DNA of 64,000 bases. Source: Solimonas terrae (GTDB taxonomy: Bacteria; Pseudomonadota; Gammaproteobacteria; Nevskiales; Nevskiaceae). The notes below the pieces were generated by a model, which saw nothing but the letters and a program-made list of their open reading frames with translations, was not told the origin of the DNA and searched no databases. This document shows, piece after piece, positions 32,384 through 35,300 of this stretch (position 1 is its first letter; every line of letters starts with the position of its first letter). A program made the translations under genes and the position numbers. The stretch spans positions 62,001 through 126,000 of the forward strand of contig NZ_JAAMOW010000009.1 in the NCBI RefSeq assembly GCF_011067135.1, in the 5' to 3' direction.

Positions 32384-35300
32384 TCAGTCTTCCGGCTCGT
32401 AGCCGAGGTTCGGCGCCAGCCACTTCTCGGCCTGCGCCAGCGTCCAGCCCTTGCGCTTCGCGTAGTCGGCCACCTGGTCCTTGTTGATGCGCCCGACCAC
32501 GAAGTACTGCGATTTCGGATGCGAGAAGTACCAGCCGGACACGGCGGCGCCGGGCCACATCGCCATGCTCTCGGTCAGCGAGATGCCGGCGTTCTTCTCG
32601 ACGTCGAGCAGTTGCCAGAGCGTCTGCTTCTCCGTGTGTTCGGGGCAGGCCGGATAGCCGGGCGCCGGACGGATACCGCCGGTGCTGCCGATGTACTTCT
32701 CGGCGATCAGCTCGTCGTTGCTCAGATGCTCGTCCGCGGCATAGCCCCAGAACTCCTTGCGCACACGCTGATGCAGACGCTCGGCGAAAGCCTCGGCGAG
32801 GCGGTCGGCGAGGGCTTCGAGCAGGATCGCGCTGTAGTCGTCGTTCGCCTTGCGGAAGGCTTCGACGCGCGCCGCCGAGCCGATACCGGCGGTGACGGCG
32901 AACGCACCGACGTAATCGTGCAGGCCGGTTTCGGCCGGCGCGATGTAGTCGGCGAGACAGCGATGCGGAACGCCGGGGCGATGCTCGCTTTGCTGGCGGA
33001 TGCTGTGCAGACGCGCGATCTCGTGCGCGTAGGTCTCGTCGCTGTAGACGGCGATGTCGTCGTGCTCGACCTGACGCGCCGGGAAGAGACCGAATACGCC
33101 GTTCGCGGTCAGCCACTTCTCGTCGATGATGCGATCCAGCATGGTTTGCGCGTCATCGAACAGCTTGCGCGCCGCTTCCGAGGTCGCCGGGTTGTTGAGC
33201 AGGTCCGGGAAACGACCCTTCAGTTCCCAGGCAATGAAGAACGGCTGCCAGTCGATGAACTCGCGCAGCTCGGCCAGCGGATAGTCGTGCAGGGTCTTCA
33301 CGAACTGCATGGCATTCCCCTCTCCCCCCGGGAGAGGGGTCAGGGGTGAGGGCACCGCATCCGCCGGCGCTGCATGCGTTACCGACCACAGCGCTTCAAG
33401 CACCTGTTCGGTTGCATTCAGAACCTCCGTGTTCCAGAAGCGCTGCACTCGAATGCCCTGATCGTTCAGATACTGCGTTCTCGCTTGATCGCGCTTTTGC
33501 ACTACAGGCTCGGCGTGCTGGCCGCCATCAATCTCGATCGCCAGCTTTTTCTCGTCGCAGTAGAAATCCAGCACATAGGGGCCCAGCGGATGCTGCCGCC
33601 GGAACTTCATGCCGTCGAAGCGCCGGTCCCGAAGCACCGACCAAAGCCTGGCTTCCGCGTCAGTCTGCTCTTGGCGCAAATCCCGAACGAAACCGAGAAG
33701 CTCGGCTGGAAGCCTGGCTTTGCTGCTTTTTGCAGCACCCTCACCCCCGGCTCCTCTCCCGGCGGGGGAGGGGTGATGCCGATGGTCGCAGCCGACGATG
33801 CCGCAGACATCCTTCGCCTGCTGCAGCAGCAGGCGCGGGCGCGGCGGCCGGTAGCCGGCCCAGTCGATGGGCGTGCGATTGGCACGCGCGGCGTCGAGGC
33901 TGACGAACTTCTCCTGGCGATCCTTGTTGGCGTGACGGTGACGGATTTCGTCGTAGTCCTTCTTCGTTGCCGCCAGCAGCGCCGGCTTCTGCTCGGCCGA
34001 CAGCAGGCCGGCGGCGACCGGCACCGAACGCGACGCATCCTTCACCCAGATCACCGGCCCGTGATAGGCGGGATCGACCTTGACCGCGGTATGGGCGCGC
34101 GAGGTCGTCGCGCCGCCGATCAGCAGCGGGATGTCGAAGCCCTGGCGCTCCATCTCCTTGGCCAGCGTCACCATCTCGTCGAGCGACGGCGTGATCAGGC
34201 CCGACAAACCGATGATGTCGGCCTTGTGTTCGCGCGCGGCGTCGAGGATCTTCTGCGGCGGCACCATGACGCCAAGATCGACGACGTCGTAGTTGTTGCA
34301 CTGGAGCACGACGCCGACGATGTTCTTGCCGATGTCGTGCACGTCGCCCTTGACCGTCGCCATGACGATCTTGCCCTTGGCCTGCTGTGCGTCGCCGGGC
34401 TGCTTTTCGGCTTCGATGAACGGGATCAGATGCGCGACCGCCTTCTTCATCACGCGCGCGGATTTGACGACCTGCGGCAGGAACATCTTGCCGGCGCCGA
34501 ACAGATCGCCGACCACGTTCATGCCTTCCATCAGCGGACCTTCGATCACTTCGATCGGCCGCTTGCCTTCGGCGGCGAGCTGCGCGCGCAATTCCTCCGC
34601 GTCGGTTTCCGCAAACGCGTCGATGCCCTTCACCAGCGCGTAGGTGATGCGCTCGCGCACCGGCTTCTCGCGCCACAACAGCTCGTCGCCGGTCTTCTTC
34701 TCACCGGCGCTCGCACGATAGCGCTCGGCGATGTCGAGCAGGCGCTCGGTGCCGTCGGCACGGCGGTTGAGGATCACGTCCTCGATGCGCTCGCGCAGTT
34801 CGGCATCGATGTCCTCGTAGACCGGCAGCACGCCGGCGTTGACGATGCCCATGTCCATGCCGGCGCGGATGGCGTGGTACAGGAATACCGAATGGATCGC
34901 CTCGCGCACGAAGTTGTTGCCGCGGAACGAGAACGACACGTTCGACACGCCGCCGGAGACCTTGGCGTGCGGCAGGTTCTGCTTGATCCAGCGCGTCGCC
35001 TCGATGAAATCGACGCCGTAGTTGTTGTGCTCCTCGATGCCGGTTGCGACCGCGAAGATGTTCGGGTCGAAGATGATGTCTTCGGCCGGAAAGCCGACCT
35101 GCTCGGTCAGGAGCTTGTACGCCCGCGCGCAGATGTCCTTGCGGCGCTGCAGGTTGTCGGCCTGGCCCTGTTCGTCGAAGGCCATCACCACCGCGGCGGC
35201 GCCGTACTGCAGGCACAGCTTCGCCTGGGCGATGAATTTCTCCTCGCCTTCCTTCATCGAGATCGAGTTGACGATGGGCTTGCCCTGCACGCACTTCAGG

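Follow-up and report, generated by a model that had tools for sequence, protein, structure and literature searches.

An in-frame DUF559 nuclease-like element with triplex-motif hairpin ends in metH of Solimonas terrae, and related elements within other bacterial proteins

Results

Architecture of the element in metH

The major feature of the window (the whole 64,000-nucleotide stretch of Solimonas terrae DNA that was analyzed) is metH, encoding the B12-dependent methionine synthase, which contains an in-frame inserted element with a DUF559 domain (Table 1). The MetH frame (36640..32384, minus strand) was stop-free over 1418 codons, and its Pfam matches were found in the order S-methyl_trans, Pterin_bind, B12-binding_2, B12-binding, DUF559, and Met_synt_B12. 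The DUF559 match (PF04480) covered residues 985 to 1086 with an E value of 1.5e-35 and a score of 121.8 bits, against a curated cut-off of 20.6, and lay between the B12-binding and activation domains. A complete DUF559 domain with inverted ends, carried in the open MetH frame, and its placement between the B12-binding and AdoMet-reactivation domains had both been claimed in an earlier note made from the sequence, and both were confirmed; the frame-breaking sequencing error which that note named as a possible refutation is contradicted by a frame that is open throughout, with no stop. Through the insert itself, no stops were observed in the MetH frame on the metH strand, against four and six in the other two frames.

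The inverted arms of the element were 43 nt each and 81% complementary, and their ungapped inverted-repeat score of 23.5 was not approached by any of 60 first-order Markov shuffles, the highest of which scored 11.0. At each end, a hairpin with a C-rich and a G-rich arm precedes a G-rich strand. In sequence, the ends match the triplex motif, with a hairpin CCCTCTCCC..GGGAGAGGG and a putative G-rich third strand GGGGTGAGGG; the pattern of C-rich stem, loop, G-rich stem, spacer, and third strand was fitted by the downstream end and failed by the other. The 36-bp terminal inverted repeats of the earlier note are therefore real as inverted ends, but they are more than mere terminal repeats in that they match a published triplex-forming repeat. 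The same note held that the domain has no start of its own. By eye, no ATG or GTG was seen in the MetH frame within the insert 5' of the domain, but an in-frame TTG stands at the DUF559 edge (residue 988, approximately 33677-33679), and because of this position internal initiation at the TTG may be conceivable.

Table 1. Features of the metH element and of a related hairpin pair, in window coordinates
Feature	Position	Strand	Basis
metH, B12-dependent methionine synthase, 1418 aa including the insert	32384..36640	-	ORF and Pfam
In-frame inserted element, residues ~956-1108, net +456 bp	33317..33773	-	10 congener protein linkers, DNA alignment of 7, junctions of two
DUF559 (EDxHD/Vsr-like nuclease) domain	33383..33688	-	PF04480, structure model, structural matches
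Downstream end (3' of DUF559, metH sense), hairpin and G-rich third strand	33317..33359	+	Inverted arm
Strict triplex-motif form of the downstream end	33318-33352		Pattern search
Upstream end, imperfect copy of the downstream-end motif	33731..33773	-	Inverted arm, 81% complementary; fails strict triplex-motif pattern
Compact DUF559-less pair of like ends, nearly back to back, intergenic	54824..54906	.	Inverted repeat, sequence
Triplex-motif pattern in the DUF559-less pair	54824-54863		Pattern search

A high copy number in the S. terrae genome was rejected, as only three DUF559 matches and nine hairpins were found and a search with the 24-nt end gave the metH element's own end as the sole near match. 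The genome search for the ends that had been suggested earlier thus returned no further copy of that end. The DUF559-less pair in Table 1 was identified as an inverted repeat in the window and follows a gene at 53691-54818 that we take to be pntAA-like. Two other features of the window were recorded. A 22-nt inverted repeat (95%) with the outer end CTAGGGCCTGTTAACG encloses approximately 270 bp at 17329-17602 and contains a second, inner inverted repeat, making it a candidate MITE of a different family. An anti-hemB RNA (RF02837, 56 bits), of an Rfam family described as Burkholderia RNA 7, matched at 5668-5760 on the minus strand.

Insertion into the MetH linker

In all 10 of the 10 other genomes of the genus searched, MetH had the equivalent linker without the insert. 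It was therefore concluded that the element is an insertion, and ancestral MetH sequence was ruled out; the earlier reading of the element as an insertion stood, as none of these congeners shares it. Comparison of the junctions with two congeners gave an empty site, as had been sought, in which 3 bp are replaced by 459 bp, so that the unit of 457 bp first described corresponds to a net gain of 456 bp (152 codons). No target-site duplication or direct repeat was visible at the junctions against these two empty sites, in which respect the element differs from a classical transposon or MITE. The flanks of the empty sites were 83 to 89% identical, so an old, short target duplication could be blurred.

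A MetH match was found in 54 of the 58 genomes of the family. The linker was readable in 51 of these and unreadable in three; it carried DUF559 in four (G000, G013, G014, and G051), other short inserts in two, and none in 45. Since six of the 51 linkers are occupied, the linker was deduced to have been struck repeatedly. The DUF559 domains in the four genomes probably represent three events. A single metH insertion was judged unlikely, as the copies were not united in the trees and their positions in the linker differ slightly; the well-supported branches of the 129-domain tree (see below) do not alone force more than one metH origin. Of the two short inserts (L120 in G041 and L130 in G054), the first is a PREGGDPV..DTRLRGDDGG stretch resembling the translation of another repeat, and the second amounts to about 34 extra residues. 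Among the best 80 of at least 412 relatives described below, one MetH hit (L250) was placed by Pfam at a different linker.

The MetH parts flanking the insert were under purifying selection, with dN/dS values of 0.10 to 0.20 against three congeners, and the chimera presumably folds and works. The host had been called an essential-type enzyme, which may not hold for S. terrae itself: MetE is present besides MetH, so MetH may be dispensable there, and its role as the only methionine synthase of this genome was rejected. No match to the MetE N-terminal domain was found in G013, G014, or G051, which carry the same kind of chimera, and therefore their chimeric MetH is probably the working enzyme. 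Stagnimonas aquatica has the MetH chimera and no MetE match.

Related elements in the family and their trees

DUF559 was found in 40 of the 58 family genomes, with 67 matches. Sixty of these were taken as family loci, leaving out the window copy and six weak matches, and six weak or partial loci (L101 to L106) were dropped before the tree and end counts, giving 54. In-frame domains inside hosts were observed in MetH (four genomes), HrpA (two), and LeuS (one); in the remaining loci of the 30 inspected for each of HrpA and LeuS, out of the 58 genomes, the corresponding site had no DUF559. In three family loci the domain lies between a Pfam-unmatched region and a CoA-transferase domain, and in four it is N-terminal to a TadA-like deaminase, one of these being labelled by clustering. 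The frame continued for 150 residues or more N-terminal and 80 or more C-terminal to DUF559 in 9 of 54 family loci (10 of 55 when the window copy is counted). The LeuS chimera belongs to a Nevskia sp. metagenome assembly (G027), and it is presumably the working enzyme because it is the only strong LeuS match in that genome. In LeuS of G033 and G051, the corresponding linker, as read from the protein, holds a short hairpin-like translation and no DUF559.

When 55 domains were placed in a tree, all seven inserts internal to MetH, HrpA, and LeuS fell within one group of 12 (97/96), whose remaining members were four copies situated between two genes and a single further copy. A sister relationship between the metH copy of G013/G014 and the leuS copy of G027 had support of 100/95, and of 92 in a larger, quicker tree of 129 domains, from which it was deduced that hosts have been switched. 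The latter tree, which left out L267, L270, L279, and three repeated records, placed the four between-gene copies elsewhere, and the group of 12 is therefore not robust. It also gave strong clustering by host (21 changes versus 45 in shuffles), so much of the inheritance is vertical. A profile of 11 of these copies, searched against 85 genomes of the order, gave 27 matches down to a limit of 1e-34; the 11 profile members themselves scored at least 177.8 bits and the next match 144.2.

The genes flanking the four between-gene copies (L091, L092, L094, and L095) are presumably lolC and lolD. These junction copies occur in two genera, and their ORF apparently starts before the upstream gene has ended. 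Two further copies, L050 (G010) and L056 (G002), were 96.8% identical in DNA and share a site at the end of frames of approximately 700 residues; no other Pfam host domain was found in L050, and no hairpin pair was found in either.

Hosts beyond the family

A scan of the genomes of 84,980 species gave at least 412 confirmed relatives, of which the best 80 were kept as named loci, chosen for their similarity to the group that contains the in-frame inserts. These 80, the best of at least 412, came from several phyla and added MetG, ValS, RecG, HsdR, MmeI-type, and other hosts. In 49 of them, the DUF559 frame continued for no fewer than 150 residues ahead of the domain and 80 beyond it, which is not an unbiased rate because of how they were picked; in 21 of the 80 the frame was 200 residues or fewer. 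Of 46 proteins scanned with Pfam, at least 19 had host domains both N-terminal and C-terminal to DUF559, and these cover ten host types: MetH, HrpA, LeuS, ValS, MetG, RecG, HsdR, MmeI-type, YgiQ-type radical SAM, and a hydantoinase A-B protein. Clustering of the named loci (best 80 of at least 412) gave a MetG group and an HsdM group of nine each, and the two HsdM-group proteins scanned had Pfam host domains on the N side only. The names HrpA, MetG, YgiQ, HsdM, and MmeI are our reading of Pfam content and clustering.

In one HrpA locus (L287, also among the best 80 of at least 412) the domain lies between the two helicase halves. The YgiQ-type and MmeI-type hosts, in contrast, are split within a domain, and linkers are therefore not the sole targets. 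The earlier suggestion of an element exploiting tolerated in-frame sites gains from the related elements in many proteins and from the other inserts in the MetH linker, but it has to allow for sites inside domains. Matches were present in 5 of 50,697 phage records and in 43 of 72,556 plasmid records, some of the latter being chromosome-sized.

Fold, conservation, and selection of the DUF559 domain

A structure model from 44 sequences (the window copy and 43 of the 80 named loci, themselves the best 80 of at least 412) had a mean pLDDT of 93.1. The best solved structures were 3hrl, an endonuclease-like protein that belongs to the same family (sequence 3.4e-34, fold 2.0e-9), and 3r3p, the catalytic domain of I-Bth0305I (profile 1.2e-4; Foldseek 8.8e-5 and 1.8e-4 for two chains, TM 0.63 to 0.77). 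Weak PDB sequence matches to B-subunit toxin chains (E 0.01 or worse) look like chance and were set aside. Residues D51, E62, D64, Q67, and H68, counted within DUF559, were identical in all 44 aligned rows; the G013 copy has lost one conserved His (GGQR). A DUF559 gene is assigned to the EDxHD homing endonuclease family (PMC9403480), and a DUF559 Vsr-like protein is reported to underlie the SOS response of some Caulobacter cells (PMC12907096). The domain presumably cuts DNA.

In inherited inserts, the dN/dS of DUF559 was 0.17 (metH), 0.16 (hrpA), and 0.13 (CoA transferase). In the MetH pair it evolved faster than the MetH flanks, for which dN/dS was 0.06 to 0.07. The dS of DUF559 in this pair (0.216) equals that of the preceding MetH part (0.215), as expected for a vertically kept insert, and the part after it had a dS of 0.42; dS within the HsdM and MetG groups was mostly saturated and was not used as evidence. 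For all 11 distinct pairs of copies above 85% DNA identity, the adjoining DNA was shared as well, on either side of the element in 10 pairs and on the single side available in the eleventh. None of these pairs thus represents near-identical copies located at different sites, and hence there is no sign of recent movement.

The ends and hairpin copy number

For the family loci and the named loci (best 80 of at least 412; L267, with runs of X, was left out, giving 79), the strict triplex motif was found 5' of DUF559 in 30 of 54 and 44 of 79, 3' of it in 30 of 54 and 50 of 79, at one end or more in 39 of 54 and 57 of 79, and at both ends in 21 of 54 and 37 of 79, respectively. Of 953 control stretches taken from these loci, 3 matched the same pattern. 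Looser hairpins were present on both sides in 39 of 54 family loci and 67 of 79 named loci (best 80 of at least 412). The DUF559 frame was open through both of these hairpins in 28 of the 39 and 58 of the 67 (again within the best 80 of at least 412), which is partly expected in GC-rich sequence.

The 58 family genomes contained from 0 to 226 hairpins each, and a backward control pattern matched in two of them, once each. Hairpin number rose with the number of DUF559 matches (rho 0.66, all 57 matches above 60 bits being used), and none of 5000 within-genus permutations gave a value as high; rho was 0.60 after two hairpins per DUF559 were subtracted. Exceptions included G003 and G056, with 43 and 21 hairpins and no strong DUF559, and G004 and G054, with DUF559 and no hairpins.

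In Escherichia coli, ycjD is a DUF559 gene that follows sapF (L315, L317). The strict motif starts 25 bp past the ycjD DUF559 match in strain KE47, an apparent worn remnant lies just after ycjD in K-12 MC4100, and the strict pattern was unmatched just after ycjD in H240; the motif was present further downstream in all three. The strict motif is thus found right after ycjD in one of three strains, and on the 5' side in none. A 721-bp sapF-ycjD query was matched over at least 80% of its length in 3309 of 5426 E. coli genomes. Two strains without ycjD had no strict motif within 4.1 kb; these are not clean empty sites, since other genes occupy the place. A PF04480 search of the E. coli control genome gave no match.

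Discussion

Palindromic repeats inside protein genes are known both as intragenic REPs and as RPEs, the latter in frame, with hosts that include tRNA synthetases and RNA helicases; most paired inserts are described as 20 to 30 residues, reaching 82, and flexible protein parts were proposed as the cause of tolerance (PMC3733652). Small repeats with open frames inside genes have also been described (PMC2759123). The metH element resembles RPEs and intragenic REPs in being a palindromic repeat in frame with empty sites in relatives, but it differs from them in holding a complete nuclease domain between two hairpin ends, and its ends, by their description, belong to a repeat family other than that of the Rickettsia RPEs. 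In-frame palindromic repeats are thus already known, and none was found described with a nuclease domain. In the titles and abstract openings of the open-access literature, no description was found of DUF559 elements that are bounded by triplex motifs or that lie in frame within host genes; the same literature gave no paper on in-frame REP insertions with linkers, nothing on point for homing elements without splicing, and for PF04480 giant viruses only.

The intrastrand triplex motif (TM/TMECO) was described by Holder and others, with inverted pairs in E. coli, where its copies are reported to be intergenic; no association with transposons, phages, or plasmids is reported from that study, and neither "endonuclease" nor "DUF" is used in its main text (PMC4666352). 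The ends of the present element match this motif and form inverted pairs, but here the motif bounds DUF559 elements and occurs within genes. The domain shares its fold and a detectable sequence kinship with the EDxHD nuclease I-Bth0305I, for which further DNA-binding parts are described (PMC3943268). The PDB entry terms I-Bth0305I a mobile intron protein, whereas the present element contributes a catalytic domain alone, translated as part of a host protein.

We propose that these are a family of DUF559 elements with two inverted triplex-motif hairpins that move in a homing-like manner and tolerate translation instead of splicing, and assign this reading a probability of about 0.6. The wider proposal of a new homing-like class, with an EDxHD-type nuclease between triplex-forming hairpins that is translated as an internal host domain and not spliced, and that also moves the orphan triplex-motif repeats of more than 260 bacterial genomes is more tentative and is given a little less than an even chance. 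The homing-like reading is supported by the empty sites, the many hosts, the shared ends, the purifying selection, the copy-number correlation, and the homing-endonuclease fold. It is weakened by the lack of recent copies, by host clustering in the tree, by the exceptions to the hairpin correlation, by the faster evolution of DUF559 relative to the MetH flanks and the loss of a His in G013, by hosts that are split inside a domain, and by the E. coli motif following ycjD in one of three strains.

DUF559 is likely the mobility nuclease of the element, and from its fold, conservation, co-occurrence with the ends, and host switching we infer that the elements move by it. Since the DUF559 frame is usually open through both ends, a copy landing in the right phase would add a domain to its host and not knock it out, and a tolerant loop or linker would accept such a copy. 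Production of the nuclease would then depend wholly or largely on translation of the host protein. DUF559 would most likely recognize or cut the hairpin/triplex ends or the target site, and repair of the break would then copy the element, which amounts to homing-like movement. Hairpin pairs that lack DUF559 would be non-autonomous derivatives.

The best-surviving alternative, considered rather unlikely, is that mobility resides in the hairpin pair itself, driven either by another enzyme (a Y1/RAYT transposase) or by recombination linked to replication at triplex-forming DNA, with DUF559 as a passenger captured between two hairpins. This would account for the pair at 54824-54906, for the short hairpin-like translations that occupy the LeuS linker in G033 and G051, and for genomes with hairpins and no strong DUF559, and triplex motifs have been tied to instability in E. 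coli (PMC4666352). The paired inverted hairpins with a partner endonuclease do recall the REPIN/RAYT system as it is described, but the partner here would be of another kind, DUF559, and located within the element. Furthermore, hairpin number was related to Y1_Tnp number with a raw rho of 0.25 and a partial correlation of 0.005 given the DUF559 count in the 58 genomes, while the partial correlation with DUF559 given Y1_Tnp was 0.63, and eight genomes with at least 10 hairpins had no Y1_Tnp match. A Y1/RAYT transposase was consequently rejected as the cause of hairpin number. The co-occurrence of DUF559 with the ends in the family and in the named loci (best 80 of at least 412) also speaks against a passenger, and the conserved nuclease residues and low dN/dS argue against passive cargo.

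It is improbable that the domain is a fusion kept for host benefit, providing a useful nuclease or binding function in MetH, MetG, HrpA, and restriction proteins. In its favor, inheritance has long been vertical in some hosts, as eight of nine MetG copies group together (SH-aLRT 91; best 80 of at least 412); DUF559 is under purifying selection, and several hosts are restriction-modification proteins, in which a nuclease might be useful. Against this, the hosts are functionally unrelated, the insert is missing from most of the relatives that were examined, its ends consist of repeat DNA, and the metH copies do not come together in the best trees. Far less probable still is an intein-like insert removed by protein splicing. 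The in-frame position inside a host protein and the homing-type nuclease domain are shared with inteins, but no Hint or intein domain was matched in a Pfam scan of the whole MetH, the insert consists only of DUF559 and hairpin-derived Pro/Gly-rich ends, and its first residue is Pro; an intein was therefore rejected, and the insert seems to be retained in the protein. An assembly or sequencing artefact, suggested by the many metagenome-assembled relatives, is the least probable of all given the frame open across the whole protein, the purifying selection on flanking MetH, and similar inserts in records not titled metagenome from Stagnimonas aquatica (MetH), Ferriphaselus (MetG group), Mariprofundus erugo, and Nitrosomonas nitrosa (HsdM group).

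Returning to the homing-like reading, these data point to a widespread, little-noticed kind of mobile element living within working proteins. If this is true, it would provide a candidate enzyme for the abundant triplex-motif repeats and would account for odd extra domains in MetH, MetG, LeuS, ValS, HrpA, and restriction enzymes. The natural insertion points, seemingly tolerated by large enzymes, would be useful to protein engineering. It would also represent a third route by which nuclease elements survive in genes, relying on neither a self-splicing RNA nor a self-splicing protein.
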